Positions 2,978-25,065 of a stretch of 40,143 nucleotides of DNA are shown here, in pieces. The DNA is taken from the NCBI RefSeq assembly GCF_017643905.1, contig NZ_JAEPMO010000017.1:1-40143 (forward strand), read 5' to 3'. This stretch comes from Marivita sp. (GTDB lineage: Bacteria > Pseudomonadota > Alphaproteobacteria > Rhodobacterales > Rhodobacteraceae). Position numbers and translations under genes: made by a program. The notes under the pieces are model-generated. The model worked only from the letters and a program-made list of their open reading frames with translations. It searched no databases and was not told the DNA's origin. Positions within the stretch are counted from its first letter, which is position 1, and every line of letters starts with the position of its first letter.

Positions 2978-3011
2978 GATAATGCTGCCTTCTGCAAATT
3001 GTATCAGATGG

Positions 3012-3042
3012 AAAAAAAACGGCGCCCCCGAAGGAGCGCCGT
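3012..3042 (-). terminator. Intrinsic terminator or attenuator after GMC gene
   Basis: Perfect 7-bp stem (3019-3025 with 3036-3042, ACGGCGC/GCGCCGT), followed on the minus strand by eight T residues (3012-3019). It lies between the GMC stop and the class II aldolase start, so it can end or reduce transcription into the aldolase gene. Confidence 0.8.
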
Positions 3043-3049
3043 CCATGGC

Positions 3050-8346: not shown

Positions 8347-8394
8347 TCGGCGGTCACCCCCTTAACGCGAAAACTTCCATCGGAGGAGACCAAA

Positions 8395-9576: not shown

Positions 9577-9584
9577 TGCAGCTT

Positions 9585-9616
9585 GCCGTACGCCACGCCT
9601 CCCCGTGGCGTACGGC
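9585..9616 (+). promoter_or_regulatory. Strong intercistronic hairpin after binding-protein gene
   Basis: Perfect 13-bp stem, GCCGTACGCCACG (9585-9597) with its complement at 9604-9616 and a 6-base loop, lying between the binding-protein stop and the ATPase ribosome site. No T run follows. Such hairpins commonly protect the 3' end of binding-protein mRNA so that this subunit is made in excess. Confidence 0.7.
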
Positions 9617-9639
9617 TTGTCCGTGAGGAGGAGCACGAC

Positions 9640-11133
9640 ATGTCGACAGATGTTTTGACCATGCGGGACATCGACAAGGCGTTCAACGGGAACCCCGTGC
9701 TGCGCCATGCCGGGTTCACTCTTCGCAAGGGCGAATGCCATGCCCTGATGGGCGAAAACGGCGCGGGCAAGTCCACCCTCATGAAGATCCTGACAGGCGT
9801 CTATCAGCGGGATGCCGGCATCGTGCAGATCGACGGACAGGATGTCAGCTTTGCCGCACCCCGCGATGCAGAAGCCGCCGGGATCGCGATGATCTTTCAG
9901 GAATTCAGCCTGATCCCCACCCTGACCGTCGCCCAGAACATCTTTCTGGGTCACGAGCCGAAACGCGGCAACAACATCTTCATCCGCGATGCGGAAATGA
10001 TCCGCCGCGCCCACGAGATCCTGCGCGAATTCGGCGAAAACATCGACCCGCGCTCCCGTGTCGAAGACCTGAGCGTCGGCGCGAAACAGATGGTCGAGAT
10101 CGCCAAGGCGTTGTCCAAGAACGCCCGAATCATCGTGATGGACGAGCCCACCGCTTCGCTGTCCGAAAGCGAGGTTGAGACCCTCTTCCGGCTGGTGAAC
10201 CAGTGGAAAAAGCAAGGCATTTCCATCGTCTACATCTCGCACCGCATGGCCGAGATTTACCAGATTTGCGACCGTATCACCGCGATGCGTGACGGGCGCG
10301 ACATGCTGACGGCCGACACAAGTGACGTGACAATGGAAGAGCTGATCCGCGCCATGCTTGGCTCTGACAGCACCGCCGCGTTGGATTGGGTCGCGCGCGA
10401 CGTCGACATGACGGCGGCCCCCGTTCTCGAGGTCGAGAACCTGCGGGTGAACGGATATGTGGACGACGTGAGCTTTGATGTCCGCCCCGGCGAGATCCTT
10501 GGACTTGCCGGACTCACCGGTTCGGGCCGCACCGAGATTGTCGAGGCCATTTTCGGCATTCGCCAGATTGACGGCGGGTCTGTCCGGATTGATGGCCATT
10601 CCGTGCGCAGTAATCGCGATGCCATTGAGGCAGGCGTCGGGCTGGTGCCCGGGGACCGCCGGACACAGGGCCTAATTCTGGATCACAGCCTTCGGGACAA
10701 CGTGATCCTGCCGAACCTTGCCCGCTTCACGCGCAACCTGTTTGTCGGGGACACGACCGCGCGCGCGGCATCCGACCGGCATATCGCGGACCTCAAGATC
10801 AAGTGCGAAGGCCCGGAACAAGAGGTCTACCTTCTGTCCGGCGGCAATCAGCAAAAGATCGTTCTCGCCAAGTGGCTGGAGCGCAAACCCAAAGTCCTGA
10901 TCCTTGATGAGCCGACCATCGGTGTCGATATCGGCGCGAAATCCGAACTGGTGCGCAAAGTACGCGAGATCGCGGATGCAGGCACGGCGGTTGTCGTCAT
11001 TTCATCCGAATTCGAAGAGCTGCTCGCGATCAGCGACCGGCTGCTCATCATCTACGATGGCAGCGTGATCGGGAACATGAACCGCAAAGACGTGCAATCT
11101 GAGGAGGCTCTGCACCATGCAGTCCAAGGCTGA
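9640..11133 (+). CDS. Ribose-type ABC transporter ATP-binding protein (double domain)
   Basis: 497-residue RbsA-like ATPase with two nucleotide-binding domains. The first has Walker A GENGAGKST (residues 38-46), the signature-like LSVGAKQM and Walker B IIVMDEPTASL. The second has the degenerate Walker A GLTGSGRTE typical of RbsA and XylG, signature LSGGNQQK and LILDEPTIGVD. It drives carbohydrate import at the cytoplasmic membrane. The ATG at 9640 is preceded by GAGGAGG. It overlaps the permease gene by 17 bases, showing translational coupling. Confidence 0.94.
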   Translation: MSTDVLTMRDIDKAFNGNPVLRHAGFTLRKGECHALMGENGAGKSTLMKILTGVYQRDAGIVQIDGQDVSFAAPRDAEAAGIAMIFQEFSLIPTLTVAQNIFLGHEPKRGNNIFIRDAEMIRRAHEILREFGENIDPRSRVEDLSVGAKQMVEIAKALSKNARIIVMDEPTASLSESEVETLFRLVNQWKKQGISIVYISHRMAEIYQICDRITAMRDGRDMLTADTSDVTMEELIRAMLGSDSTAALDWVARDVDMTAAPVLEVENLRVNGYVDDVSFDVRPGEILGLAGLTGSGRTEIVEAIFGIRQIDGGSVRIDGHSVRSNRDAIEAGVGLVPGDRRTQGLILDHSLRDNVILPNLARFTRNLFVGDTTARAASDRHIADLKIKCEGPEQEVYLLSGGNQQKIVLAKWLERKPKVLILDEPTIGVDIGAKSELVRKVREIADAGTAVVVISSEFEELLAISDRLLIIYDGSVIGNMNRKDVQSEEALHHAVQG

Positions 11134-12094
11134 CCCCATGCCGCAAGAAAGATCGTTCCATCTCGGACGCATCAACTGGCGCGAAAACATCGTTTACATC
11201 TGCTTTGCCGGTGTGCTTCTTTTCTTTGCCGTCACCATTGGCGACAAGGGCTTCCTGACGGTGTCGAACCTCTTCAACATCGCCCGCACAACCGCGATGA
11301 TCGCGGTGATTTCCATCGCGATGACCTTCATCATTTCGTCAGGCGAACTGGACCTGTCCGTCGGTTCGACTGCCGCGCTGGCGGCGCTTGTGTCGGCGCT
11401 GGCGATACAGGCGGGATACGGATTTGTCGGCGGCGTGATCGCAGGATTGCTGTGCGGCGTGGCGGTCGGTCTGGTCAACGGGTTCTTCGTCACCGCCCTG
11501 TCGATCCCGTCTTTCCTTGTGACGCTGGGCATGATGCAGCTGGTGCGCGGCATCGACATGCGGATCACCTACACCAACCCCGTGCCCGTGCGGAACGAGA
11601 CCTTCGACATGGTGTTCGGCCCCGGCACGATCGGCGTGGTCCCCACCCTGTTCCTCTGGGCTGTTGCCGTGGCGATCCTCGGCCATGTGGTGCTGCGCTA
11701 TACACCCTTCGGTCGGCAAGTTCTGGCCACCGGAGGCAACCGCGAAGCGGCGCGCTATTCCGGCATCAACACCAAGCGTGTGAAAATCATCTGCTTCCTG
11801 ATCACCGGTGTCGGCGCGGCTTTGGCCGGGATGCTCTGGACCGGGATGATGGGAACCGCGCGTTACAACTTCGGCGAAGGCGCGGAACTCGCCGCCATCG
11901 CGGCTGTGATCCTTGGGGGAACAAGCCTGTTCGGAGGCAAGGGCACGATCATCGGCACTTTCGTGGGCGCCCTGCTGATCGGGACCATCAACAACGGTCT
12001 GATCATCATGGGGCTGGACGTGTCCGAGCAGATGATGGTGGCGGGTGCGATCATCGTTCTTGCGGTCGCCTTCGGCAAAAAACCCAGCCGCTGA
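11117..12094 (+). CDS. Ribose-type ABC transporter permease
   Basis: 325-residue integral membrane permease of the RbsC/BPD_transp_2 family. It has about 8-10 hydrophobic segments, the conserved SSGELDLSVGS early motif, NPVPVRNETFD and the cytoplasmic loop FGRQVLATGGNREAARYSGI, which contacts the ATPase. One permease gene is enough because these transporters use homodimers. A second ATG seven codons in (11138) is an alternative start. It completes the hydrolase-RbsBAC operon, and a terminator follows at 12120. Confidence 0.93.
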   Translation: MQSKADPMPQERSFHLGRINWRENIVYICFAGVLLFFAVTIGDKGFLTVSNLFNIARTTAMIAVISIAMTFIISSGELDLSVGSTAALAALVSALAIQAGYGFVGGVIAGLLCGVAVGLVNGFFVTALSIPSFLVTLGMMQLVRGIDMRITYTNPVPVRNETFDMVFGPGTIGVVPTLFLWAVAVAILGHVVLRYTPFGRQVLATGGNREAARYSGINTKRVKIICFLITGVGAALAGMLWTGMMGTARYNFGEGAELAAIAAVILGGTSLFGGKGTIIGTFVGALLIGTINNGLIIMGLDVSEQMMVAGAIIVLAVAFGKKPSR

Positions 12095-12151: not shown

Positions 12152-12838
12152 TCACATGAGGTGTCCGGACAGGACCAAATCCCGAAACCTATCCAGACGA
12201 TCCACAATCGACACGCAGCCTGCTTGTCTGAGCGTATCCGCGTGATCGTCGCGCCGACCTTCAAAATGCCCACCGCCGACAAACCCGACAGGTGTCATCC
12301 CGGCGGCCAAAGCGCCTTCGACGCCATGCGGGGAATCCTCGATCACGATGCAATCGCCCGGCGCACGACCAATCACCTTGGCTGCCAAAAGAAAGAGGTC
12401 CGGCGCGGGTTTGCCATGTTCGACCTGGTCAGAGCTGCACGCGCGGCCTTCGAAGAAGCCATCAAGTCCCGTTGTGCGCAGGGCCAGCGCCATTCGTGCC
12501 TTTGAACTGCCCGTGGCGACCGCCATGTGACACCCGGCATGATGAAGGGCTGACAACAGGTCGTATGCGCCGTCGATTGGGTTCAGGTCGGTCGGGTACT
12601 GATCCATCAGAACTCGGTCAATACGTTGCGCGAAGTCTTCGGGCGCAGGCCGCCCTGCCCTGTCTGCAATCAATTCGGCGATGCGCGACATCTTGAGGCC
12701 AAGCACCTCTTTCCCCAAGTCGCGCGGATTCAGGTCTTGGGCACCCAGACGGTGCGCCTCGTCGGCGATGGCCTTGAGCGACAGCACTTCACTGTCCACA
12801 AGGCAGCCGTCGAGATCGAAGATGATCGCGGGGGGCAT
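12152..12838 (-). CDS. HAD-superfamily phosphatase (beta-phosphoglucomutase-like)
   Basis: 228-residue HAD subfamily IA hydrolase with a helical cap. The motifs are complete: DLDG with nucleophile Asp8 and acid Asp10, ATGSSKAR (motif II), the Lys in HGKPAPDLF (motif III) and IEDSPHGVEG (motif IV). Such proteins remove phosphate from small sugar or polyol phosphates, or act as mutases. It is last in the minus-strand sugar operon, 33 bases after the PfkB kinase, so a sugar phosphate in the same pathway is the probable substrate. A kinase and a phosphatase in one operon suggests either different intermediates or clearing of a dead-end phosphate. Confidence 0.9.
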   Translation of the reverse strand: MPPAIIFDLDGCLVDSEVLSLKAIADEAHRLGAQDLNPRDLGKEVLGLKMSRIAELIADRAGRPAPEDFAQRIDRVLMDQYPTDLNPIDGAYDLLSALHHAGCHMAVATGSSKARMALALRTTGLDGFFEGRACSSDQVEHGKPAPDLFLLAAKVIGRAPGDCIVIEDSPHGVEGALAAGMTPVGFVGGGHFEGRRDDHADTLRQAGCVSIVDRLDRFRDLVLSGHLM

Positions 12839-12871
12839 TCAGTGGCTTTCGTTAGGGTGTTGCAGACCGGA

Positions 12872-13816
12872 TCACGCGCGGATCGGCGTGGTCTCCATAA
12901 AGGCGATGGTGTTTTCGAGCGACGACACAACCGCCTGGGAACCAAGCCCCATTGCGTTCTGTGCCGAGGATGCCTGTCCGAAGCGGATGCAGTCCTCAAT
13001 GGAACGGCCCAGATGCAGCCCGGTGGCAAAGCCCGCGTTGAAGCAATCGCCGCAGCCACAGGTGCAGACCACATCGATCTTGTAAGATGGGATGTCGATC
13101 TTCTGACCGCGCTGATCGCGGTACATGGCCCCATCTGCGCCAAGCGTCAGGATGACAGCACCGACGCCCTGATCCAGTAGGAATGCGGCGATCTGTTCAT
13201 AATCGGTCATGCCCGACAGGGCCATCGCCTCTTCCTCGGACGGCATGAAGTAGTCGGTATGCGCCAGAAGCGGGCGGATCAGTGGGAAATCCTCGGGAGT
13301 TGAGGCGAAGACATCCAGCGTGGTGGTGATGCCGCGGGCCTTGGCCTCGGCCAGAAGTTCGGCATTGCGCCCCTGGTCCATCGCGTCCATGAGGCCGACG
13401 CCGCCGATGTGCAGGATTTTGGTGTCCAGAACCCGGTCCATTTGGTCATCAGTGACATAGAACCCCGCCGTCGCACCGCGCTTGTGGAGTGCCGGGCGCG
13501 CCCCATCGGGGCGGGTGGTCACAACACTGGACGAGGTGGTCATGTCGGGGATGCGCTGCATCATCTCGGTATCGACGCCGAAGTCGCCAAAGCGACGCAG
13601 GACCCAATCGCCCATCAGGTCATTGCCGACACCGCCCACAGCCTGAACCTTAAGCCCATGCTTGGCCGCGACGATGGCCGCTGAGCCCGCAGCGCCGGAC
13701 ACAGCCAACGTAAATTCATCGACGAAATAGGTGTTTCCGCCGGGGGGGATTTCGGTCACCGGGCGGCACAGCGCGTCAAAGGTGTGAAACCCCATCGAGG
13801 TATAGTCAAAGGTCAT
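12872..13816 (-). CDS. PfkB-family carbohydrate kinase
   Basis: 314-residue ribokinase-fold kinase that would phosphorylate a sugar, keto-acid or polyol with ATP. The N-terminal part has the GG-type substrate region (VSGAAGSAAIVAAKHG and GGVGNDLMGDWVLR). The C-terminal anion-hole signature reads CTCGCGDCFNAGF at 251-263, with the catalytic base at Asp257. The usual form is DTTGAGDxF, so this copy is cysteine-rich, including Cys in place of the leading Asp; GCGD itself occurs in some relatives. Start 13816 has GGAG upstream. It lies 25 bases after the ABC ATPase gene and is part of the transport operon, so its substrate is probably the imported sugar or a product of it. Confidence 0.9.
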   Translation of the reverse strand: MTFDYTSMGFHTFDALCRPVTEIPPGGNTYFVDEFTLAVSGAAGSAAIVAAKHGLKVQAVGGVGNDLMGDWVLRRFGDFGVDTEMMQRIPDMTTSSSVVTTRPDGARPALHKRGATAGFYVTDDQMDRVLDTKILHIGGVGLMDAMDQGRNAELLAEAKARGITTTLDVFASTPEDFPLIRPLLAHTDYFMPSEEEAMALSGMTDYEQIAAFLLDQGVGAVILTLGADGAMYRDQRGQKIDIPSYKIDVVCTCGCGDCFNAGFATGLHLGRSIEDCIRFGQASSAQNAMGLGSQAVVSSLENTIAFMETTPIRA

Positions 13817-13841
13817 GGGTTGTTCTCCATCCTGTGCGGCG

Positions 13842-14891
13842 TCAGCGCAGGCGCTGACCGGAGGCCGTATCGAAAAGGTAAATCCGCTTGGGATCAAAGC
13901 CGACAGACGCGTCGGAATTCAAGTCCGCGCGATAGTCGCGATGGGCCTTCACCTCGATCAGCTTGTCCCCTGCCTTGAGCGTGAGATAGGTCATGTCGCC
14001 CGTCGGCTCGACCCCGTAGACGCTGCCCGTCAGATGACCGGCCTCGGCCGTCACCGCGCAATCCTCGGGGCGCACGCCCAGAGTGACCTTGCCGTCATGT
14101 TTGGCGGGCAGCCCCTCTACGCGGACACCGGGCGCTGTGAAGATGCCCTGCTCCATCCTGCCTGCGATCAGGTTCATAGGCGGCGCACCGATGAAGTTGG
14201 CGACAAAGGTGTTCGCGGGATCGTTGTAGATCTCGTCCGGCGTGCCGATCTGCTGGATCGCGCCCTTGTCCATGATCACGATGCGGTCTGCGAGCGTCAT
14301 CGCTTCGATCTGGTCATGGGTCACGTAGACGGTGGTGATCTTCAGCTCGCGCTGGATATGCTTGATCTGCACGCGCATGTGCTGACGCAGCTTGGCGTCG
14401 AGGTTCGACAGCGGCTCGTCCATGAGGAACGCATGCGGTTGGCGCACGATGGCACGGGCCAACGCGGCGCGCTGGCGCTGACCGCCTGACAATGCGCTGG
14501 GTTTGCGGTCGAGGTAGTCGACCAGTTCGACCAGTCCTGCCGCACGGCGGATCAGGGCATCATGCTGCTCCTTCGGAACGCCGCGCATGCGCAAGGGAAA
14601 GCGGATGTTCTCGTAGATCGTCATGTTGGGATAGAGCGCGTAGCCCTGGAACACCATCGCCACATCCCGGTCGCGGGCGTCGATGTCGTTCATCACCTCG
14701 CCGTCCATGACGATCTCGCCTTCGGATGGCTCTTCAAGACCTGCGATCATGCGCATGGTGGTGGTCTTGCCGCAGCCCGAGGGGCCAAGGAAGACGACGA
14801 ATTCCTCATCCGCGATGTCGAGGTTCACGTCCCGGACACCCCAGATGGCGCCCCAGCGTTTCTGGATGTTGTTGAGTTGGATTCTTGCCAT
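13842..14891 (-). CDS. ABC sugar transporter ATP-binding protein (MalK/UgpC type)
   Basis: 349-residue ATPase of the carbohydrate uptake CUT1 group. Walker A GPSGCGKTT is at residues 36-44, followed by Q-loop FQGYALYP, signature LSGGQRQR, Walker B FLMDEPLSNLD and the His switch VTHDQIEA. The C-terminal regulatory TOBE-type domain follows (VTLGVRPEDCAV). It powers the two permeases encoded just upstream, with only 3 bases between genes. Start and length are normal for the family. Confidence 0.95.
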   Translation of the reverse strand: MARIQLNNIQKRWGAIWGVRDVNLDIADEEFVVFLGPSGCGKTTTMRMIAGLEEPSEGEIVMDGEVMNDIDARDRDVAMVFQGYALYPNMTIYENIRFPLRMRGVPKEQHDALIRRAAGLVELVDYLDRKPSALSGGQRQRAALARAIVRQPHAFLMDEPLSNLDAKLRQHMRVQIKHIQRELKITTVYVTHDQIEAMTLADRIVIMDKGAIQQIGTPDEIYNDPANTFVANFIGAPPMNLIAGRMEQGIFTAPGVRVEGLPAKHDGKVTLGVRPEDCAVTAEAGHLTGSVYGVEPTGDMTYLTLKAGDKLIEVKAHRDYRADLNSDASVGFDPKRIYLFDTASGQRLR

Positions 14892-14894
14892 TTC

Positions 14895-15740
14895 TTATCC
14901 TTTGACGGCCCCCATGGTCAGACCGCGTGAGAGATGTTTCTGGATCAGCACGACAACCAGGAACACCGGGAGGAACGCGAGGAAGGCGACCAGCGCGATT
15001 GCATTGTAGATCACACCGTCCGACCCGCCGGTGAAGTTCGCCAGCGCCACCGACATGGTGTAGGCGTCGGGCGTCGAGGCGATGAGCAGCGTGAAAAGGA
15101 ATTCGTTGATCGCGAAGATCATCGCGATCACGGACGCCGTGATGATCCCGGGCAGGATCGCCGGAATGATGATTTCCCAGAGAATGCGCAATTCCCCCGC
15201 CCCATCGGTCTTGGCGGCGTCTTCCAGTTCCTTCGGGATGTCCAGCATGTAGGACCGGATGATCCATGTCACAAAGCTCAGGTTGATGGCGGCATAGATC
15301 AGCATCAGCGCCCAGATCGTGTCCAAAAGCCCGAAATTGCGGAACAGGAAGAAGATCGGCACCGCAACGATGGCGGGCGCCATCATGCGGGTCGACAGGA
15401 TGTAAAACCCGATATCGTCCCGCCCTTTGTATTCGAAGCGCGACAGCGAGTAGGCGGCGGGGATCGCCAACACGAGGTCGATGATCACCGACCCGATGAT
15501 GGCCAGCACCGAATTGCGCAGGTATTTTCCCATCGGCCAGTCTTCCCAGATCATATGCCATGCATCGAGGCTGAAGGTCGGGAAGTAGATCGGTTGCGGC
15601 GTGATGATCTCGGTCCGGGGGCGCAGGCCGATGGACAGGAACCACAGAACCGGAACAAGGCAGAACAAAGCCCATGCGCCAAGGATCGCGTAGCGCAGGG
15701 CAAGGCTTTCGCCGCGGGAACGTTTGCGGGCAGATGCCAT
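14895..15740 (-). CDS. ABC sugar transporter permease (MalG type)
   Basis: 281-residue inner-membrane protein with six predicted membrane segments and the CUT1 EAA-loop region (KELEDAAKTDGAGELRILWE), which docks on the ATPase. It begins with a short basic cytoplasmic tail (MASARKRSRGES). It lies between the ATPase and MalF-type genes with 3-base gaps on both sides, a tightly coupled operon. Substrate unknown. Confidence 0.94.
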   Translation of the reverse strand: MASARKRSRGESLALRYAILGAWALFCLVPVLWFLSIGLRPRTEIITPQPIYFPTFSLDAWHMIWEDWPMGKYLRNSVLAIIGSVIIDLVLAIPAAYSLSRFEYKGRDDIGFYILSTRMMAPAIVAVPIFFLFRNFGLLDTIWALMLIYAAINLSFVTWIIRSYMLDIPKELEDAAKTDGAGELRILWEIIIPAILPGIITASVIAMIFAINEFLFTLLIASTPDAYTMSVALANFTGGSDGVIYNAIALVAFLAFLPVFLVVVLIQKHLSRGLTMGAVKG

Positions 15741-15743
15741 GGC

Positions 15744-16688
15744 TCAGGTCCTCGCCGAGACAAAGGCGCGTTTGACGACAAACTGCGCAATGATGATCGT
15801 GATGATCAACATGATCACCGATGCGGCCGAGGCATAGCCGAAGTTGAAGAACTTGAAGCCCGTCCGGTATATGAAATAGCTGATGGTTTCGGTACCAAAG
15901 GCCGGACCACCCTTTGTGATGATGAAGACGTTGGTGAACATCGTGGTGATGTCGATGGCCCGCAGGATGAGCGCGACCGCGATGATCGGCTTCATCATAG
16001 GCAGTGAGATGTTCCAGAAGATCGCATACCAAGATGCGCCATCGAGCCGCGCGGCCTCTTCCACTTCTTCATCCTGTGCCTGAAGACCGGCGACGAAGAT
16101 GATGAAAAGAAACGGAGTCCATTGCCAGACATCGGCGATGATCAGGATCATCCGGCTGAGCCATGTTGACGACTGCCACGCGACGTTGCCGTCCAGCAGA
16201 CCGACCCGGATGAACAAATCCGCGACCACCCGTGCGTCCAGAAAGGCCAGCTTGTAGATGAAGGCCACCGCCGAGGGCATGAAGAGCATCGGAATAAGGA
16301 AGATGATCCGCCACCCCTGAACCCACGGGTCGCGATAGGCATAGAACGCCAGCGCCAGTGCGATCACGCATTGCAGGATCAATGAAATCGAGCCGATGAC
16401 AAAGGTGTTCCAGAGCGCGCCCCAGAACTGGTAGTCGCCCATCAGGCGCGTGTAATTGTCGAACCCGGCCCATTGCCACGGTCCGAACTTGACGTTGTAG
16501 AAGCTCTGAGTGATCGCAAAGATGCCCGGATAGAGCGTGATCAACATCAGATACAGAACCGCCGGCGCGACCAGTATGTAGGGCAGCAAGGCTTTCATGC
16601 GCTTGCTGCGCCGCTTGAATCTGCGGTGCGTCGGCTGTGCCGGGGCAGCGTGTGCCGCCCCGGAGTCCGACAGAGCTGGATTGCTCAT
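15744..16688 (-). CDS. ABC sugar transporter permease (MalF/UgpA type)
   Basis: 314-residue inner-membrane permease with a basic N-terminal tail (RRFKRRSKRMK) before the first membrane helix and about six membrane segments. The EAA loop is EEVEEAARLDGASWYAIFWN. It forms the heterodimeric CUT1 channel with the MalG-type protein encoded immediately downstream. The binding-protein gene is 42 bases upstream. Confidence 0.94.
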   Translation of the reverse strand: MSNPALSDSGAAHAAPAQPTHRRFKRRSKRMKALLPYILVAPAVLYLMLITLYPGIFAITQSFYNVKFGPWQWAGFDNYTRLMGDYQFWGALWNTFVIGSISLILQCVIALALAFYAYRDPWVQGWRIIFLIPMLFMPSAVAFIYKLAFLDARVVADLFIRVGLLDGNVAWQSSTWLSRMILIIADVWQWTPFLFIIFVAGLQAQDEEVEEAARLDGASWYAIFWNISLPMMKPIIAVALILRAIDITTMFTNVFIITKGGPAFGTETISYFIYRTGFKFFNFGYASAASVIMLIITIIIAQFVVKRAFVSART

Positions 16689-16730
16689 GACAATCTCGAT
16701 CCTGTCCAGTTTGCGCTTAGTCTAAGACCC

Positions 16731-18284
16731 TTAGAACGGCAAAGACTTGCCTTCGCCGACATAGAGCCCCGGTGCCGCCTGAGCATAGTCTACCGGATCA
16801 TTGCCCTGATAGAAGCCGTTCGACGACATGATCTGCTTGACCGCAGCCGCCGCGTTGTCGAGCGCTTCTTTCGCAGAGATCTGGCCGACTACGGCGCGGT
16901 TGATCTCGTTGCCGATGGCCTGTTCGATCGGGAAGGCCCCGGGAAGACGCGGGCTGCACCATGCGTGATGCAGGCTGTCGCCCCAGACTTTTGCGGGCTG
17001 CGACACGGCCTGAAGGTTTTCGTTCTCCAGAACCGACTTGTAACCCGGCGCCACGCCATTTGCGTTGGCTTCGTTCATCGCCATGATCGACGCCGTGGTC
17101 AGGAAGCCCAGCATGAGGAATGCACCTTCCGGGTTCTGCGCCGAGGCAGACACGCACGAGGTCGAACCCGCGATGTTCGGCGGGGCAAAGCGGCCACCCG
17201 AGATGCGCGGTTCGTAGATCGTGACGAAATCGTCGACGATCTGCGACTGGTCGGGACGCATGGCCTGTGTGCCGCTGTCCTGCCAGCTGATGTTCGTGGC
17301 AACCTGCCCGCCCAGCCATGCGGCACGGTTTTCCGGCCAACCTGCACCAGCGTGACCTTCGTTTGCGTTCTTGGCCAGTTCGAGAATGATCTCGAGACCT
17401 TTCATGCCCGCATCGCCGTTGAAGATCGGCTCCCAGTTTTCGTCGAACAGCATCATACCGGCCTGCGCCGCAATGTGTTCCCATGTGTAGGTCGACCAGA
17501 AGCCGGGTGCCGCCATCAGGCCCACACCGGACACACCGGGTTCCACTTTGTTCAGTTCGCCGGACAGGCGGATCAGTTCGTCATAGGTCGGAACCGAGTT
17601 TGCCTTGTCGATCGGACCACCCAGAACCTGCTCGAGATAGCCTTTGCGCAGGTGGACCATCTGAATGTCGCAGTCGAACGGGATACCGTACATCTGGCCG
17701 TTGAAATAGCCATAGTTCAGACGGTACGTGTCGTAGAAGTCGTCAAGCGGAAGCTTCCACTTGTCCGCGAACTCCTGCAGCGGATAGAGGAAGCCCGGCG
17801 CTGCGAAGTCACCCAGCCAAGGCGAGAAAAACTGCAACGCGTCGAACGAGGCATTGCCCGAAATGAATTCGGCAAGCGCTTTGTCGTAGAAGCTGTCATC
17901 CGGGATCGGAACCAGCTCGACCTTGATCCCCGAGAGCGCTTCGAAGGGCACAAGGCCTTCGGCTGCGGATTCGGTGTCGGCGGCACCGATGGCGAAACGA
18001 ACCGTTGTGCCGGCAAGTTCGGAACGAACAGCCTCCCAGTCAACGGTGCGAATCCAGTCTTTGCTGTTGTCCCAGATCGGCTTGTCATCCGACATGCCAT
18101 AGAGATCGCGATAATCCGCGCGGACGTATTGCGAGATCGAGATCCCGTCGAGCACGCTTTGCGGATCCGGCAGGTGGCTGGCTGCGAGCAGCTTGCCGCC
18201 CCAGGTGGAGCCAGTTGCGGCGATTCCCATGGCGGATGCACTCGCCATGAACGACCGTCTGGATAGTCTTCCTCTGAATTCCAT
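16731..18284 (-). CDS. Tat-exported ABC sugar-binding protein (family 1)
   Basis: 517-residue extracellular solute-binding protein with a twin-arginine signal (LSRRSFMASASAMG) ending near LLAAS. The mature part has the family-1 pattern (SGIKVELVPIPDDSFYDKAL, GYFNGQMYGIPFDCD, VPTYDELIRLSGEL). It is somewhat longer than the usual 400-450 residues. It binds the substrate in the periplasm for the permeases encoded after it. Two adjacent ATGs exist; 18284 is preferred because GGGAGG lies six bases upstream, but 18287 is possible. It is the first gene of the operon and divergent from the SAF oxidoreductase. Confidence 0.93.
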   Translation of the reverse strand: MEFRGRLSRRSFMASASAMGIAATGSTWGGKLLAASHLPDPQSVLDGISISQYVRADYRDLYGMSDDKPIWDNSKDWIRTVDWEAVRSELAGTTVRFAIGAADTESAAEGLVPFEALSGIKVELVPIPDDSFYDKALAEFISGNASFDALQFFSPWLGDFAAPGFLYPLQEFADKWKLPLDDFYDTYRLNYGYFNGQMYGIPFDCDIQMVHLRKGYLEQVLGGPIDKANSVPTYDELIRLSGELNKVEPGVSGVGLMAAPGFWSTYTWEHIAAQAGMMLFDENWEPIFNGDAGMKGLEIILELAKNANEGHAGAGWPENRAAWLGGQVATNISWQDSGTQAMRPDQSQIVDDFVTIYEPRISGGRFAPPNIAGSTSCVSASAQNPEGAFLMLGFLTTASIMAMNEANANGVAPGYKSVLENENLQAVSQPAKVWGDSLHHAWCSPRLPGAFPIEQAIGNEINRAVVGQISAKEALDNAAAAVKQIMSSNGFYQGNDPVDYAQAAPGLYVGEGKSLPF

Positions 18285-18379
18285 CATTTTCCTCCCTTGA
18301 TGGCGCAATTACCTATTTTTTTCCGCCTCAAGCAGCCTCCTGTGCGGCGCGAGAGCATCGGAACACCTAATTGCACTTA

Positions 18380-18464
18380 TGAACCATTGTTCACGATCAC
18401 TCCTTTCGTCAAGAACATTTCTATGTTTTTTGAACATTTTTATTGACTAGACATCAATTGTTCA
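18380..18464. promoter_or_regulatory. Cluster of TGAACA/TGTTCA half-sites in divergent promoter
   Basis: Inverted repeats TGAAC-CATT-GTTCA (18380-18393) and AACAT-TTCT-ATGTT (18414-18427) are followed by TGAACA (18431-18436) and TGTTCA (18459-18464), all in the 218-base region between the two sugar operons. The repeated half-site is a plausible operator for the SorC regulator at 23248, which needs several sites because the family acts as a tetramer. The specific match is inferred. Confidence 0.5.
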
Positions 18465-18470
18465 GGATAT
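18443..18470 (+). promoter_or_regulatory. Putative sigma-70 promoter of SAF-E1-E2-SorC operon
   Basis: TTGACT at 18443-18448 and GATATT at 18465-18470 are separated by 16 bases. A TGTTCA half-site fills the end of the spacer, so a bound repressor would exclude RNA polymerase. The predicted start of transcription is about 25 bases before the ATG at 18503. Confidence 0.4.
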
Positions 18471-18502
18471 TCCCAGCGAACTTCAGCGACAGGAAAAGAC
18501 GC

Positions 18503-19834
18503 ATGGCATCCAACATCGCACTGACCGGATTGGCGAAAGACCTCGCCGCCCGAGCTTCTTCTGGCAAACCTGTTCGCATCGGACTGATCGGGTCAGGCGA
18601 AATGGGAACCGATATCGTGACCCGCGCTGCGATGATGGACGGAGTGGACGTGGCGGCGATCTCGGAGCTCAACGTACCGAACGCACACAAGGCCGTGTCC
18701 ATCGCCACTGGAGAGGACGGGCACAGTCAGGACGCGACCTCTACTGACAGTCTCAACGCAATCATCGAGTCGGGCAAAACGGCAATCACCGACAATGCCG
18801 ACCTGATCCTCGAATCGGGACTAATTGACGTGGTGATCGATGCGACCGGCATTCCCGCCGTGGGCGCCGAAATCGGCCTAAGGGCAATGGAGCGCGGCAA
18901 GCATCTGACCATGATGAACGTCGAAGCGGACGTGACCATCGGCGCTTACCTGCGCAACGAGGCGGACCGGTTGGGCGTTGTCTATTCGCTGGGCGCGGGC
19001 GACGAGCCGTCTTCGTGCATGGAGCTGATCGAGTTCGTGACCGCCATGGGTCACAAGGTGGTCTGTGCCGGCAAAGGCAAGAACAACCCGCTGAACATCG
19101 ATGCGACACCGGACGCGTATGAGGCAGAAGCGATCCGGCGCCACATGAACCCGCGCCTTCTGGTGGAGTTCGTGGACGGGTCGAAAACCGCCGTTGAAAT
19201 GGCCGCCATCGGCAATGCCACCGGGCTGATCCCGGATGTGGACGGAATGCACGGACCCGCCGCGGGACCAAAGGAACTTGCGAAGGTGCTGATCCCGCAA
19301 AAGGATGGCGGCATCCTGTCAGGGATCGGAAAAGTCGATTACTCCATCGGCAAAGGCGTGTCACCGGGCGTTTTCTGCATCGTGGAGGCCGAACATCCGC
19401 GCATCCACGAGCGGATGAAAGACCTCAAGATGGGCGACGGCCCCTACTACGAATTCATCCGCCCCTACCACCTGACCTCGCTCGAAGTGCCGCTGACTTG
19501 CGCGCGTTCCGTGCTCTACGGCAAGGCCGACATGGTTCCACTTGAAAAGCCGGTGGTCGAGGTCTGCGCCTTGGCCAAGAAGGATCTGCAGCCGGGCGAT
19601 ACGCTCGACCAGATCGGGGAATACACCTACCGCGCCTGGGCGATGGAAGTGGGTCGGGCGCAAGCCGCGCGCGCCCTGCCCGCCGGGATGCTGACCGGAG
19701 CCAAGGTGACGGCGCCGATCAAGAAAGGTGAGCTGATCACCCTCGCCAACACGACCCTGCCGCACTCGCGGTTGGTCGAGCTGCGCCGCCGTCAGGACAT
19801 GATGCTTTATGGGAAGGACCTTCTCAATGCGTGA
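18503..19834 (+). CDS. NAD(P)-dependent oxidoreductase, homoserine-dehydrogenase-like with SAF domain
   Basis: 443-residue protein of the COG4091 type. An N-terminal Rossmann fold (VRIGLIGSGEMG, residues 24-35) binds NAD(P). The middle part (MMNVEADVTIGAYL, YSLGAGDEPSSCMELIEF) matches homoserine-dehydrogenase-like proteins. A C-terminal SAF domain (about 355-430; KKDLQPGDTLDQIGEY, LPAGMLTGAKVTAPIKKGE) resembles sialic acid synthase and altronate dehydratase ends, which handle sugar-like ligands. True homoserine dehydrogenases lack SAF, and the operon contains no amino-acid genes, so a role in sugar or polyol breakdown is likely. The exact reaction is not known to me. Start 18503 has AGGAAA upstream. 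It overlaps the E1 alpha gene by 8 bases. Confidence 0.85.
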   Translation: MASNIALTGLAKDLAARASSGKPVRIGLIGSGEMGTDIVTRAAMMDGVDVAAISELNVPNAHKAVSIATGEDGHSQDATSTDSLNAIIESGKTAITDNADLILESGLIDVVIDATGIPAVGAEIGLRAMERGKHLTMMNVEADVTIGAYLRNEADRLGVVYSLGAGDEPSSCMELIEFVTAMGHKVVCAGKGKNNPLNIDATPDAYEAEAIRRHMNPRLLVEFVDGSKTAVEMAAIGNATGLIPDVDGMHGPAAGPKELAKVLIPQKDGGILSGIGKVDYSIGKGVSPGVFCIVEAEHPRIHERMKDLKMGDGPYYEFIRPYHLTSLEVPLTCARSVLYGKADMVPLEKPVVEVCALAKKDLQPGDTLDQIGEYTYRAWAMEVGRAQAARALPAGMLTGAKVTAPIKKGELITLANTTLPHSRLVELRRRQDMMLYGKDLLNA

Positions 19835-20843
19835 CACCGTGATACCCAATAACGTGCCCTACGCCATTTCGCGGTACAGTGCGGAGGAGCTGAAAGAGGC
19901 TCTCAAAAAGATGTACCTGATCCGCAAATTCGAGGAAGGCGCGGAAGACAGCTACATGCGCGGGCTGATCCATGGCACGATGCACCTGAGCATTGGGCAA
20001 GAAGCGTCAGCGGTTGGGTCCTGCATGTCGCTGAGCGACGAGGACAAGATCACCTCGACCCACCGGGGTCATGGCCATTGCGTCGCCAAAGGTGCGGACC
20101 TGTCGCGCATGTTCGCGGAATTCTTCGGCAAGGAAAGCGGCTATTGCAAAGGGCGCGGCGGGTCGATGCATATCGCCGACCCAAGCAAGGGCAATCTGGG
20201 CGCGAATGGCATCGTGGGGGGGGGTCTACCCATCGCCGTGGGCGCGGCCCTGTCGGCCAAGCGGCTGGGCACAGGGGCCGTCACGATCTGTTTCTTCGGC
20301 GACGGTGCGAACAACGAGGGCGCGTTCCACGAGGCGTTGAACATGGCCAAGGTTTGGAACCTGCCGGTGGTATTCGTCTGTGAGAACAACAAGTACGGTA
20401 TGTCGACCTCGACCGAACGCTCGACGGCGGTCAAGAACATCGCGGATCGGGCGGTGGCCTATGCCATGCCAGGCGTGACCGTCGACGGGAACGACTTTTC
20501 CGCCGTGACCGAAGCGGTGGATGCCGCTGTCGAGCGCGCCCGCAACGGTGAAGGCCCGAGCCTTGTCGAGAACGTCACTTACCGCTGGCGCGGGCATTCC
20601 AAATCGGACCGCAACCGCTACCGCACCAAGGAAGAGATCGCCGAGTGGCAGTCTCGCGACCCGATTGCCGCGATGGCGAAGCTGCTGGTGGACCACAAGA
20701 TCGCAACCGAGGACGAGGTTGCAGGGATCGAAGCCGACGCCACCCGGATCATCGAAGAGGCCATCGCCTTTGCGACCGAGGGCGACAACCCGAAGATCGA
20801 AGAGGTCACCCGCGACGTCTACACCGAAGAGACTGCATCATGA
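19827..20843 (+). CDS. TPP-dependent dehydrogenase E1 component, alpha subunit (acetoin/pyruvate type)
   Basis: 338-residue E1 alpha subunit. It has the thiamine diphosphate motif, [17 protein letters not shown] through to ENNKYG, the HRGHGH segment near the cofactor, and the conserved loop [10 protein letters not shown]. With E1 beta it would decarboxylate a 2-oxoacid or cleave an acetoin-like hydroxyketone and pass the acyl group to lipoyl-E2. The ATG at 19827 lies inside the end of the SAF oxidoreductase gene, with GGAAGGA upstream, and the stop overlaps the next start as ATGA. The length fits acetoin dehydrogenase alpha (about 325-340) better than the larger E. coli-type E1. Confidence 0.92.
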
Positions 20844-21850
20844 ACATGCACAGCAAGACCGACCTGCGCGAATTGTCCTATGCCGAGGCCATCCGCGAAG
20901 CCATGGATATCGCCATGGTCCGCGATGAACGCGTCATCCTCATGGGCGAGGATATCGGAGTTTATGGCGGGGCCTTTGGCGTCACTGGCGATCTGGTCGA
21001 GAAATACGGCACTGACCGTGTCATGGACACGCCTATTTCCGAGTTGGGCGGCGCTGGCGTCGCTGTCGGTGCCGCGATGACCGGGCTTCGGCCGATCTTC
21101 GAATTCCAGTTCTCGGACTTCGCGACGCTCGGGATGGAACAGATCGTCAATCAGGCGGCCAAGATCCGTTACATGCTGGGCGGCGCAGTGTCGGTGCCTG
21201 TGGTCATGCGCTTTCCCTCGGGGTCCGGCACGGGCGCTGCTGCGCAGCACAGCCAGAGCCTTGAAGCGTGGACCGCGCATGTGCCGGGTCTGAAGGTGGT
21301 CCAACCCGCGACACCTGCCGATGCGAAGGGTCTATTGCTGGCTGCGCTGGAAGATCCCGATCCGGTGATGATCTACGAGCACAAGATCCTCTACAAGATG
21401 AAGGGGCATGTGCCCGACGGCTATTACACGACACCCATCGGCAAGGCGGCGGTGATGCGCGAAGGCAAGGACCTGACCATCGTTGCCACCTCGATCATGG
21501 TGCACAAAGCGCTTGATGCGGCCGAGACATTGGCCGCCGAAGGCATCGAAGCCGAGGTGATCGACCTGCGCACGATCCGTCCTATGGACCGCGACACGGT
21601 GCTCGCCTCGGTCCGCAAGACCGGACGGCTGGTCTGCGTCTACGAGGCGGTCAAGACACTGGGCGTAGGTGCCGAGGTGTCGGCGATGGTCGCCGAAAGC
21701 GACGCGTTCGACTACCTTGATGCGCCGATCGTCCGGCTGGGAGGGGCCGAATGCCCGATCCCTTATAATCCGGAGCTTGAGAAAGCGGTTGTTCCACAGG
21801 TGCCCGACATCCTGGAGGCCGCGCGCAATCTGGCAAGGGGACGCGTCTGA
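20840..21850 (+). CDS. TPP-dependent dehydrogenase E1 component, beta subunit
   Basis: 336-residue transketolase-like beta subunit. It has the N-terminal segment [29 protein letters not shown] (seen in two blocks), then [20 protein letters not shown] with the Glu that activates thiamine diphosphate. The C-terminal transketolase domain ([25 protein letters not shown]) is present. Overlaps on both sides (ATGA with E1 alpha, one base with E2) show that the three subunits are translated together. It forms the heterotetrameric E1 with the product at 19827. Confidence 0.93.
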
Positions 21851-23163
21851 TGCCAACCGAAGTCATCATGCCCAAGGTCGACATGGACATGGCCAAAGGC
21901 AAGATCATGTCGTGGCATATTGCCGAGGGCGAACGCGTGTCCAAGGGCGATCCTCTGTTCGACATCGAGACAGACAAGGCCGCAATGGAGGTCGAAGCGC
22001 CTGCCGACGGCATCCTGTACCACACCGCCCCAGAGGGCATGGACATCCCAATCGGCACACCCTGCGCCTGGCTCTATGCCGAGGGCGAAGAGGTGGGCGA
22101 ACAACCCGCACCGTTTGCGGGGCAAGCCGGGGCCGCACCCAAGCCTGAACCAGTCGCGGCGGACGTTCCGAACGACACCAAGCCCGTCGAGGCCGAATTA
22201 GAACTGGTTGACGCCATTGCCGGGGACGCCACGGGCAAGGTCCGCGCCACCCCGCGCGCACGCTCCTTGGCCAGCGGTGCGGGCCTGAACATCGCAGACC
22301 TGATCGGAACCGGTCCGCGCGGACGGGTGCAGGCGCTGGACGTCGAAAACGAAATCGCTCTGCGAGACACGCGCCCTGCCCAGCTGGCCGCACCCGTAAC
22401 ATTCAAGGTGGAAACCGGCGCTCTTGCCGTGACCCGCTCAAAAGGTGGCACCGGCACACCCATTGTGATGATCCACGGCTTTGCCAGCGACGCGATGTCC
22501 TGGGCTCCCGTTGAGACGCATCTGAAACACCGCCCGCTGATCCGCATCGACCTGCCCGGTCACGGCAAATCGCCGAAACTGCGCATCGACAGTTTCGCCG
22601 ATCTTGTCCGCGAAGTGCGCCGCGCCTTTGACGATCTTGGTCTCGAGACAGCGCATCTGGTTGGTCACAGCCTTGGGGGTGCCATCAGCATTGGATTGGC
22701 CGACACGCGGGCAAAACGTCTGTCTTCATTGACACTGATCGCACCTGCGGGACTTGGCCCGGATATCAATGGCGATGCACTGTCGGGGATCTGCCGGGCC
22801 ACCCGTGCCGAAAGCCTTGGCCCGTGGCTGCGCAGCCTAGTGGCGAACGAAGACATCGTGACCGACAGCTATGTCCGGCTCGCGATGGCGGGCCGCGAGG
22901 ACGCCAACCTGCGCGCGGCACAGTCGCGTCTTGCCGACATTCTCTTTCCCGATGGGGTTCAGGCATTCGACCTGCGCGCGGCACTTGAACGGATCGACAC
23001 ACCGACCCGGATCATCTGGGGCAAACAGGACGCGATCATCCCCTGGAAACACGCGCTACGCGCTCCGGGCAAGATGGCGCTTCACCTTTTTGACGGCGTT
23101 GGGCACATGCCCCAGATCGAAAACAGTGACGCCGTGGGCCGGATTCTCTCGGCCAGCGTTTGA
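21850..23163 (+). CDS. E2 subunit: lipoyl domain fused to alpha/beta hydrolase (acetoin dehydrogenase E2 type)
   Basis: 437 residues in three parts. A lipoyl domain (1-80) carries the lipoylated Lys43 in ETDKAAME. A peripheral-subunit-binding segment follows (about 130-170; ATPRARSLASGAG to GTGPRGRVQ). An alpha/beta hydrolase domain runs from about 190 to the end, with MIHGFASD, nucleophile elbow GHSLGG and GHMPQIE. This replaces the usual acyltransferase domain and is the arrangement known for AcoC of acetoin dehydrogenase systems, so the complex probably releases an acyl-CoA from a hydroxyketone or diketone. No E3 gene is present, so E3 must come from a housekeeping complex. Acetoin itself is not certain as substrate, since acoX and the acoR activator are absent here. 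Confidence 0.9.
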   Translation: MPTEVIMPKVDMDMAKGKIMSWHIAEGERVSKGDPLFDIETDKAAMEVEAPADGILYHTAPEGMDIPIGTPCAWLYAEGEEVGEQPAPFAGQAGAAPKPEPVAADVPNDTKPVEAELELVDAIAGDATGKVRATPRARSLASGAGLNIADLIGTGPRGRVQALDVENEIALRDTRPAQLAAPVTFKVETGALAVTRSKGGTGTPIVMIHGFASDAMSWAPVETHLKHRPLIRIDLPGHGKSPKLRIDSFADLVREVRRAFDDLGLETAHLVGHSLGGAISIGLADTRAKRLSSLTLIAPAGLGPDINGDALSGICRATRAESLGPWLRSLVANEDIVTDSYVRLAMAGREDANLRAAQSRLADILFPDGVQAFDLRAALERIDTPTRIIWGKQDAIIPWKHALRAPGKMALHLFDGVGHMPQIENSDAVGRILSASV

Positions 23164-23247
23164 TCAGTTGTTGATTGTCACTCACCGAAAACATCGGTTA
23201 CCTGTCAAAAGCCAGAGACATAAGCCAGATCACAAGGGGGCGCACCG

Positions 23248-24222
23248 ATGGCAAAATCGCAAGACCAGCTTCGGGTCCGCGCCGCATGGCTTTACTACAT
23301 CGAAGGCATGACCCAATCCGATGTGGGCAAAAAGCTTGGCGTGAACCGGATCACGGTGACCCGTCTGCTGTCCGAAGCCAAGAAACGTGGCGAGGTTGTG
23401 ATCCGGATCAAGTCGGAATTGACCGAACTGATCGAACTACAACAACAGCTTCAGGATCACTACGATCTCGAACAGGCCATCGTTGCGCCGATGGAAGCCA
23501 TCGAAGACGACCCGACACGGGTGATCGCCGCGGCCGCTGGCACCTATGTGTCGAACCTGATGGAAAACGGCATGACCGTTGGCGTGGGTTGGGGAAAAAC
23601 GCTTCACGCAATGTTGCCCTATATCGAGGAAAAGCCCCTGTCTGACGTGCGGGTTGTGTCCCTTCTCGGCGGCATTGCACAAGCCAGACGCTTCAACCCT
23701 GCCGAATTTGCGTGGCAATTCGCCGAACTGTTCGAAGCCGAAGGCTATCTGATTTCTGCCCCGGCAGTTGTGGATTCGCCGCAAACACGGCACGCGCTGT
23801 TGGAGAACTGTGGTCTCGATCAAATCCTGCAACTCGCCGAAGCCTGCGACGTGGCCTTGCTGTCCTGCGGCGGGATCACCTCTTTGACCACGTCCTATCG
23901 CTCGGGTCACATCACGGAGTCGGACCGTCAATCGCTGATCGCGGCGGGTGCGGTCGGCGATTTCCTGTATCACTTCCTCGACAAGGACGGAAATATCGTG
24001 GACCATCCGGTCAACAATCGGTCGATCTCGATGTCGCTCGATCGCTTGAAACGCGTTCCAAGAAAAGTTCTCATGTCGGGGGGCCGGGAAAAGATCGAAA
24101 TCCTGCGCGCCAGCATCACGTCGCTTGCACCAAATGTCCTGATCACCGATGAGATTACCGCGCGAACCTTGCTTGAAACCGCTGACGCAAAGACCGGGCG
24201 CGCAGTTGCCGCAGCGGACTGA
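23248..24222 (+). CDS. SorC/DeoR-type sugar-binding transcriptional regulator
   Basis: 324-residue regulator. An N-terminal helix-turn-helix (MTQSDVGKKLGVNRITVTRL, about residues 21-40) precedes the SorC-type sugar-phosphate-isomerase-like effector domain (GMTVGVGWGKTLHAML, SLLGGIAQARR, LLSCGGI, VPRKVLMSGGREK). SorC proteins sense phosphorylated sugars or polyols. It lies 84 bases after the E2 gene, on the same strand, and probably controls both divergent sugar operons through the TGAACA repeats at 18380-18464. The effector is likely a phosphate made by the PfkB kinase. Confidence 0.92.
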   Translation: MAKSQDQLRVRAAWLYYIEGMTQSDVGKKLGVNRITVTRLLSEAKKRGEVVIRIKSELTELIELQQQLQDHYDLEQAIVAPMEAIEDDPTRVIAAAAGTYVSNLMENGMTVGVGWGKTLHAMLPYIEEKPLSDVRVVSLLGGIAQARRFNPAEFAWQFAELFEAEGYLISAPAVVDSPQTRHALLENCGLDQILQLAEACDVALLSCGGITSLTTSYRSGHITESDRQSLIAAGAVGDFLYHFLDKDGNIVDHPVNNRSISMSLDRLKRVPRKVLMSGGREKIEILRASITSLAPNVLITDEITARTLLETADAKTGRAVAAAD

Positions 24223-24360
24223 TATTGGTGATGTCAGGCGCGCTGCCAACCGTCTTGAGGTCGACCGCACAAAGACTGCAAGACATCCGGAAAACGCGGC
24301 ACCGGTAGAGGCTAGATTGGTCAACCGACCATGTGCTAACATCCAAACGAGGAGGTGGAT

Positions 24361-25065
24361 ATGATGGTTGCCAGCCCGAAGAAATTCACTCTCTTGCATG
24401 ACATGAACATGCCGATCCGCGACGCATTGCGCGGCGTGGTGAACCTTGCGGATGCTACGGAAGACATGCTGGAGCCCGCCTCCAAACTGTTGCCGGAACC
24501 GTTGCGCAGTCGCTTTCACAGCGCGATGCAGGCATTCGAGCAAGCCGGCAAACGCCTGCTCCATGCGCCGATCGACATGGAGAGGATCAGCGATGCCGCG
24601 CAGTTTGCACGAGGCATCGCGTTGGACAAAACCGGAGTTAGTGCTGCCGCAAGTGTGATCGTGTTCGCCTGGGAGCACCTGAACCAGTCCCGCGTCGACC
24701 ATCGCCACCTCATCAGTGAAAACATCGTAGCAGACCGATTGTCGCGCTTGCAACCGGACGGCGGCAAGACAGGTTTTGACTTGGCGGCTTCGCTGTTCCT
24801 CGACCTGCTGCAATCCTCCGCCATCGGTGGAATGCCCGGGGTGACGCTGGGCATCAAAAGGGAAGAAGAAACCGAAGTCGACTTGGCACTTATGGCGATT
24901 GCTGTCTGGCTCGCGTCGAAACGGGCGGACACGCTCGAGGAAGAAGAAAAGCTGCTGGATCTGTCGATGGCCCTTGTCCGCGCCCTCCAGTCAGAAGCGG
25001 AAACCGCCTTCAAGAGCCACGCGGCTTTGGCCCATTTTCTTGATGAAACCTCATCGCATCTATAG
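24361..25065 (+). CDS. Hypothetical protein, first of a two-gene operon
   Basis: 234 residues, not recognised. It is largely helical by composition, with alternating Leu and Ala stretches (PIRDALRGVVNLADATEDML, TGVSAAASVIVFAWEHL) and an acidic run EEEEK near 198. There is no signal peptide or clear membrane segment, so a cytoplasmic protein is likely. GGAGG five bases upstream supports the ATG at 24361 (24364 also possible). It lies 11 bases before the next gene, which is also unknown. Base composition is slightly less GC-rich than the neighbouring metabolic genes. The 138 bases upstream (24223-24360) show no feature I can name. Confidence 0.7.
   Translation: MMVASPKKFTLLHDMNMPIRDALRGVVNLADATEDMLEPASKLLPEPLRSRFHSAMQAFEQAGKRLLHAPIDMERISDAAQFARGIALDKTGVSAAASVIVFAWEHLNQSRVDHRHLISENIVADRLSRLQPDGGKTGFDLAASLFLDLLQSSAIGGMPGVTLGIKREEETEVDLALMAIAVWLASKRADTLEEEEKLLDLSMALVRALQSEAETAFKSHAALAHFLDETSSHL

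Follow-up and report, generated by a model that had tools for sequence, protein, structure and literature searches.

A probable methylerythritol catabolic pathway built on a type II DXP reductoisomerase in Marivita sp.

The D-apionate oxidoisomerase pathway joins catabolic oxidation of a branched sugar compound to rearrangement of its carbon skeleton. In the acetoin dehydrogenase system (acoXABCL, acoR), E1 alpha, E1 beta and a hydrolase-fold E2 cleave CH3-CO-CHOH-R to acetyl-CoA. Type II 1-deoxy-D-xylulose 5-phosphate (DXP) reductoisomerase (DXR-II, or DRL), whose known product is 2-C-methyl-D-erythritol 4-phosphate (MEP), belongs to the MEP pathway of isoprenoid synthesis and is represented by the Brucella structures 3upl and 3upy. 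Here we analysed 40,143 nt of Marivita sp. (contig NZ_JAEPMO010000017.1, GCF_017643905.1), designated the window, in which an original prediction had placed a sugar or polyol catabolic cluster at 12152-24222. We consider it probable that this cluster serves to catabolise 2-C-methyl-D-erythritol (ME), by a route in which the entry of the MEP pathway would be run backwards. The pathway would resemble that of D-apionate in the oxidative rearrangement of a branched sugar, and would differ from it in its enzymes and in the downstream cleavage. No methylerythritol catabolic pathway was found in the open-licence literature, nor was the gene set matched there to any named pathway, in agreement with the original prediction. 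The string 'catabol' was absent from the main text of the 2013 DXR-II paper (PMC3847144) and from a 2023 study, a 2024 review (PMC11192765) and a 2026 review (PMC13001223) of the MEP pathway.

By its sequence, the oxidoreductase encoded at 18503 is a DXR-II. Residues 1-435 of 443 matched the Brucella DRL structures (E about 8e-188), and the Pfam model DRL_cat (PF21135) matched with E 1e-65. The residues that Carretero-Paulet et al. tied to DXR-II function (substrate-site K191, K193 and T229, and interface R320; PMC3847144 section 6) were kept in the alignment, as was H250. E168 and K193 were present both in DXR-II sequences adjoined by E1 genes (E1-linked; 81/81) and in stand-alone ones (46/46), while 17 more distant sequences, labelled DLO-type in this analysis, had Q168 in 17/17 and K193 in 0/17. 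More distant relatives were mostly 28-43% identical, and both full-length homology and the tree placed the window DXR-II closer to verified DXR-II than to the DLO-type relatives. The match to the DRL structures ruled out a homoserine-dehydrogenase-like protein or a generic sugar oxidoreductase. The protein had originally been described as a COG4091-type oxidoreductase with a SAF domain, which was a misreading: in a search of the Marivita genome the Pfam SAF model matched three other genes and did not match the one at 18503. A SAF domain is listed for the DXR-II family in a figure legend of PMC3847144. The window DXR-II shares family, full length and signature residues with the DRL of the MEP pathway, but it is encoded with an importer, a kinase and a thiamine pyrophosphate (TPP)-dependent complex, in a genome that also has the type I enzyme (DXR-I), and its proposed direction is reversed.

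The cluster consists of two divergent operons, and all of the open reading frames and families originally assigned to it were recovered by open reading frame listing and family profiles (Table 1). The left operon encodes a binding protein, two permeases, an ATPase, a PfkB kinase and a HAD enzyme; the right operon encodes the oxidoreductase, E1 alpha, E1 beta, a hydrolase-fold acetoin-type E2 and a SorC-type regulator. The identity of the oxidoreductase as DXR-II points to the substrate, and we infer that ME is taken up by the binding-protein-dependent ABC importer and phosphorylated to MEP by the PfkB kinase, or by a phosphotransferase system (PTS) in other lineages. DXR-II would then act in the oxidative direction, from MEP to DXP, and E1 alpha, E1 beta and E2, together with an E3 encoded elsewhere in the genome, would convert DXP, CoA and NAD to acetyl-CoA and glyceraldehyde 3-phosphate. 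GAACA-N22-TGTTC palindromes may serve the SorC regulator in control of the promoter. DXP carries an acetoin-like CH3-CO-CHOH- end, PMC13001223 lists the DXR reaction as reversible, and two Firmicutes are described with DXR-II and no other genes of the MEP or mevalonate (MVA) pathways (PMC3847144 section 7). An importer-fed catabolic pathway, as first proposed, is retained here, and the CoA-dependent cleavage of a hydroxyketone by the acetoin-type TPP complex is probable.

The order of phosphorylation and oxidation was assessed from 88 E1-linked loci, which were partly redundant (at least three duplicate pairs) and were compared over the stretch around each locus. The ABC module was found in 24 of the 88 and a glucitol/sorbitol-type PTS in 22, and no locus had both; PfkB was found in 35, in two of them together with the PTS. 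Since the glucitol-type PTS replaces ABC and PfkB, phosphorylation of the polyol probably precedes oxidation, and phosphorylation of the other fragment after cleavage, as first suggested, is probably wrong. Because a PTS couples import with phosphorylation, the substrate of the oxidoreductase should be a polyol phosphate, and MEP is such a compound. The DXR-II operon of a Rhizobium from blueberry (L200) is annotated with GutM, IIC, IIB, IIA and PtsP, and a PTS lies near DXR-II in Terrarubrum and Pseudoroseomonas and further off in Aminobacter. On a plasmid of Priestia (Bacillota), PTS, E1, E2 and E3 genes lie within 12 kb of DXR-II, E1 alpha being within 10 kb; a PTS within about 12 kb of DXR-II was also found in Listeria innocua and Ligilactobacillus. 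ABC genes and a sugar kinase accompany the DXR-II cluster in Rhizobium sophoriradicis and in Sinorhizobium meliloti Rm41, the latter with its own lpdA and lipA. The Paracoccus versutus record has no annotation at the DXR-II region.

Further arrangements were observed around DXR-II. In Ligilactobacillus salivarius (L208), DXR-II, PTS and a sugar-binding regulator are followed by fructose-6-phosphate aldolase and transketolase, not by E1/E2, perhaps as another way to cleave the ketose phosphate. The Rhizobium plasmid locus L200 carries thiC, thiO, thiS, thiazole synthase, thiamine phosphate synthase and thiD (18817-24026) after the DXR-II/E1/E2 operon; DXP is a thiamine precursor too, and TPP is the cofactor of E1. 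A second kind of DXR-II cluster (L101, L111, L125, L130, L153, L201) encodes a PfkB about 57-59% identical to that of the window and may channel other stereoisomers of 2-methyltetrol into the route. Genes for a Zn alcohol dehydrogenase and an FAD GlpD-like enzyme adjoin the L101 cluster, and the S. meliloti cluster likewise has a zinc dehydrogenase and a GlpD-like gene nearby.

The window E1 alpha shares 54% identity with its counterpart in the Priestia DXR-II cluster, 46% with the Paracoccus denitrificans acoA and 43-44% with the one other E1 alpha of its own genome, that of pyruvate dehydrogenase (PDH). In a tree with one acoA and one PDH reference and long branches, 24 DXR-II-linked E1 alpha sequences formed one side of a branch (SH-aLRT 93), and the window E1 alpha did not group with the single acoA. 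It scored 386.2 bits against the PDH E1 alpha model TIGR03182, below the cut-off of 393.85, and the E2 exceeded the cut-off of 307 bits for the NCBIfam acetoin dehydrogenase E2 model. Neither acoX nor acoR, both originally noted as missing, was found among the genes of 12152-25065 or ten further window genes scanned. The complex resembles the acetoin system in its E1 alpha, E1 beta and hydrolase-fold E2, but its E1 alpha is nearer to other DXR-II-linked E1s than to the Paracoccus acoA, acoX and acoR are lacking, and the proposed substrate is imported and phosphorylated. A plain acetoin or pyruvate dehydrogenase was held unlikely on the E1 alpha tree and identities and on the linkage to DXR-II. 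The broader proposal that E1/E2 is a common pyruvate or acetoin dehydrogenase whose genes only happen to lie next to an unrelated sugar operon agrees with the acetoin type of the E2, yet DXR-II-cluster E1 alpha sequences from two phyla group apart from acoA and the genome's own PDH, within the limits of few references and long branches, and E1 alpha is adjacent to DXR-II in 70 of 80 named loci (the best 80 of at least 570) and within 10 kb on the Bacillota plasmid; we regard it as most improbable. In several rhizobial operons, among plasmid hits such as H58, H69, H79 and H84, the match to the window E2 was confined to its lipoyl and E3-binding region; this type of operon thus seems to employ E2 catalytic domains of two kinds.

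The Marivita genome encodes DXR-I (391 bits), IspG and one DRL_cat protein; because it has DXR-I, DXR-II is superfluous there for isoprenoid synthesis. In a family sample of 248 genomes, 82 had some DXR-II match at E 0.001 and 17, Marivita included, had a match of at least 61% identity over near full length; in a class sample, 98 of 385 genomes had some match, mostly weak. Twenty neighbourhoods from the two samples placed DXR-II next to E1 alpha in 11 cases, stand-alone in seven and too close to a contig end in two. DXR-I was present in the Marivita genome and in all ten others that have one DXR-II, linked to E1 (two of the matches scored under the curated cut-off, one truncated at a contig edge and the other split into three pieces), in none of the seven genomes with a stand-alone DXR-II, and in 10/10 sampled genomes lacking DXR-II, kinship being uncorrected. 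No DXR-I was found in G438, of unassigned setting, or in G227, a genome with two copies of DXR-II. One of these, the E1-linked L083, matched only in separate pieces and looks broken; the other lies at a contig edge.

The named set consisted of the best 80 of at least 570 relative-encoding stretches and is therefore one of close relatives. E1 alpha did not adjoin DXR-II in nine of its loci, and one was unassignable. DXR-I was searched for in 78 genomes (one locus lay outside them and two loci shared a genome). The neighbourhood comparison advised by the original prediction showed an E1-linked DXR-II beside a dedicated acetoin-type E1/E2 in 72 of these 78, counting G640 by the fragmented L083 copy and G644 and G661 by a second copy; the six without it also lacked DXR-I. 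Among the 72, DXR-I was present in 31. Second DXR-II copies were searched for in the 47 genomes without DXR-I: 31 of the 72 had a second, stand-alone DXR-II, two had a second copy of unassigned setting, and eight had the E1-linked copy alone. IspG was present in all eight, three of which are titled as metagenome assemblies and could be incomplete, and in 22/22 genomes in which it was sought. Since IspG is present and no other DXR was found, the E1-linked copy probably serves as the DXR of those eight genomes. DXR-II was also carried by 38 plasmid records at E up to 1e-100. In L157, from a record titled Bacillus subtilis SK6B4, DXR-II groups with Paenochrobactrum, and the assembly is probably mislabelled or contaminated.

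These distributions bear on a supply of isoprenoid precursors, in which E1 would act as a DXP synthase on pyruvate and glyceraldehyde 3-phosphate and DXR-II would form MEP as a second, regulated entry to the MEP pathway. Given pyruvate and glyceraldehyde, purified PDH makes 1-deoxyxylulose, and DXP is supplied in cells by aceE mutants (PMC3424233, with reference to Yokota and Sasajima 1986 for acetoin dehydrogenase). This chemistry is a precedent for the DXP cleavage proposed above, but it also means that PDH variants can yield DXP; a stand-alone DXR-II, moreover, coincides with missing DXR-I. This explanation nevertheless leaves the importer, the kinase or PTS, the lipoyl E2 and the sugar-sensing regulator unaccounted for, in a genome that has its own DXR-I, and is very unlikely.

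A quick tree of 135 DXR-II sequences required 13 label changes for the E1-linked setting and 15 for the stand-alone one. One clade of 96 held all 81 E1-linked sequences together with 14 stand-alone and one unassigned, and in each of two Aminobacter genomes nearly identical copies occur in the two settings. We infer from these sequences that E1-linked and stand-alone DXR-II have the same activity, the interconversion of DXP and MEP. Two functional DXR-II paralogs are encoded in Mesorhizobium loti and two in Ochrobactrum anthropi (PMC3847144), and by comparison with relatives one paralog of each would be E1-linked. The substrate could instead be another branched or deoxy polyol, such as a 2-methylthreitol stereoisomer or an apiitol-like compound, to which DXR-II would have drifted with the scheme of phosphorylation, oxidation with rearrangement and cleavage with CoA unchanged. 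Importers that vary between lineages and the extra dehydrogenases (Zn-ADH, FAD GlpD-like) near some clusters speak for such a compound, whereas the signature residues of DXR-II are unchanged, stand-alone sequences nest among E1-linked ones and the E1-linked copy is the sole DXR found in eight genomes; we consider this alternative unlikely.

The palindrome GAACA-N22-TGTTC occurs three times in the window (7079, 18361 and 18432). Loosening the spacer to 10-30 nt gave six matches where 0.76 were expected, and two of the six (3170 and 17445) fall inside genes. Of 82 E1-linked loci, 30 had the shorter form GAAC-N24-GTTC in the 400 bp upstream of DXR-II, as against 0/48 others, with 0.007 expected per 400 bp. 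A further copy lies at 25726 of the window, away from the pathway genes.

Several findings weigh against an ME pathway of this composition. None of the three modules (ABC, PTS, PfkB) was found in 30 of the 88 E1-linked stretches, several clusters use other importers, and the choice between PTS and PfkB follows lineage, related genomes having been weighted equally. Listeria innocua has DXR-II and PTS without E1 within 10 kb, and a plasmid DXR-II of Phyllobacterium T1293 (L199) lies beside an Rbs-type importer without E1. The window cluster has no E3 gene, E3 elsewhere in the genome not having been searched for; E2 and regulators vary, some rhizobial operons matching the window E2 only in its lipoyl part. 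The exact palindrome is missing upstream of DXR-II in 52 of 82 E1-linked loci. The predicted structure of the binding protein, from an alignment of seven close orthologs, had a mean pLDDT of 41, too poor to use. Finally, 31 of 45 stand-alone sequences branch outside the E1-linked clade, mostly as second copies of Mesorhizobium- and Brucella-group genomes, so that the case for a shared activity is carried by the 14 inside it and the eight genomes with the E1-linked copy alone.

The functional unit probably extends left to about 7079, since the same palindrome and a co-occurring hydrolase/Rbs cassette occupy 7079-12094. The best PDB match of the hydrolase at 7435 was the soluble epoxide hydrolase 7ac0 (E 7e-40). 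Its D108, E132, H164, Y225 and H282 align with the residue set of Cif, which we take to be the Asp nucleophile, the Glu acid, the His base and the His/Tyr ring-opening pair, and are invariant in 8/8 orthologs aligned. This set predicts an epoxide hydrolase; unlike other Cif-type enzymes, the gene co-occurs with an Rbs-type importer and the DXR-II operon. A fluoroacetate dehalogenase is less likely, with Glu112 at what is presumably the position of the second carboxylate-binding Arg. Orthologs of at least 74% identity were found in 8 of 108 compared loci, all eight E1-linked. In the family sample, five of 248 genomes had an ortholog, four of them among the 12 E1-linked genomes (P 1.6e-5); with Marivita left out, three of four were E1-linked (P 2.6e-4). 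In those four E1-linked genomes the ortholog lies on the DXR-II contig, within about 15 kb, and the fifth genome is 79% complete and has no DXR-II match. An RbsB ortholog follows the hydrolase in three of the four other genomes of the sample. In the window the hydrolase is preceded by GAAC-N24-GTTC at less than 450 bp, as it is in 4/7 other named loci and in 2/4 further ones.

Isoprene epoxydiols (IEPOX) are major atmospheric oxidation products of isoprene and open to 2-methyltetrols. A 2-methyltetrol pathway preceded by an epoxide hydrolase suggests that isoprene epoxydiols are a substrate, and we conjecture, as a tentative and somewhat doubtful extension, that the Rbs-type importer and the Cif-like hydrolase (7435-12094) take up IEPOX and open it to 2-methyltetrols, which would be broken down via MEP and DXP to acetyl-CoA and glyceraldehyde 3-phosphate. 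PMC12177631 makes no mention of IEPOX.

Among the other features, the HAD phosphatase of the original prediction is present, but it is not a steady part of the cluster: an ortholog of at least 60% identity was found in one of the 88 E1-linked loci (L085), and weaker HAD matches (about 38-43%) occurred in several stretches. A HAD gene 38-40% identical to that of the window adjoins a stand-alone DXR-II in seven genomes of the Brucella/Ochrobactrum group (L165-L171). The binding protein had weak matches in the PDB, from which no ligand was deduced. Upstream, a LacI regulator, a class II aldolase and a GMC oxidoreductase (996-4624) form another small sugar-type cluster.

Table 1 Features of the Marivita sp. 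cluster and of the upstream hydrolase/Rbs cassette, in window positions.
Feature	Position	Strand	Basis
Candidate operator of the SorC regulator, GAACA-N22-TGTTC, upstream of hydrolase/Rbs operon	7079-7110	.	pattern search
Variant palindrome, 21-nt spacer	7302-7332	.	pattern search
Alpha/beta hydrolase, Asp nucleophile, Cif-like epoxide hydrolase (predicted)	7435-8346	+	PDB match, residues
Rbs-type sugar-binding protein (Peripla_BP_4)	8395-9576	+	family profile, co-occurrence
Rbs-type ABC ATPase	9583-11133	+	read from translation; ortholog co-occurrence; probable start about 9640
Rbs-type permease	11117-12094	+	read from translation; ortholog co-occurrence
HAD-type phosphatase, variable accessory gene	12152-12838	-	family profile, neighbourhood comparison
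PfkB-family kinase, proposed 2-C-methyl-D-erythritol 4-kinase	12872-13897	-	PF00294, E 2e-41; probable start near 13816
ABC importer ATPase, MalK/UgpC type	13842-14891	-	family profile
ABC permease, MalG type, binding-protein-dependent	14895-15740	-	family profile
ABC permease, MalF/UgpA type, binding-protein-dependent	15744-16688	-	family profile
Solute-binding protein (SBP_bac_1), RR-containing leader	16731-18308	-	PF01547, E 2e-26; probable start 18287; orthologs seen
Candidate operator GAACA-N22-TGTTC, divergent promoter	18361-18392	.	pattern search
Candidate operator GAACA-N22-TGTTC, near DXR-II gene	18432-18463	.	pattern search
DXR-II (DRL), DXP reductoisomerase family, proposed MEP to DXP	18503-19834	+	3upl/3upy match, PF21135, signature residues
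E1 alpha, TPP-dependent	19809-20843	+	PF00676
E1 beta	20840-21850 (start about 20840)	+	PF02779/PF02780
Acetoin-type E2: lipoyl, E3-binding and alpha/beta hydrolase domains	21850-23163	+	NF011457, 358.9 bits; Pfam
SorC/DeoR-type sugar-binding transcriptional regulator	23248-24222	+	PF04198, E 2.5e-58; NCBIfam matches under cut-off

How DXR-II arose in strains that have DXR-I, redundancy being disfavoured, is a question in print (PMC3847144 discussion), and the methylerythritol pathway gives a testable answer to why DXR-II persists beside DXR-I. The patchy spread of DXR-II, its occurrence on plasmids and the two Firmicutes without other MEP or MVA genes would become understandable if DXR-II were originally a catabolic oxido-isomerase, and its biosynthetic use would then be a recruitment. 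Methylerythritol accumulates in plants together with its glucosides (PMC11192765). If the proposed pathway is true, methylerythritol would join the known bacterial carbon sources, and isoprene oxidation products may possibly do so too. Should the conjecture on IEPOX also hold, the cluster would provide a bacterial sink for major products of isoprene oxidation in the atmosphere.

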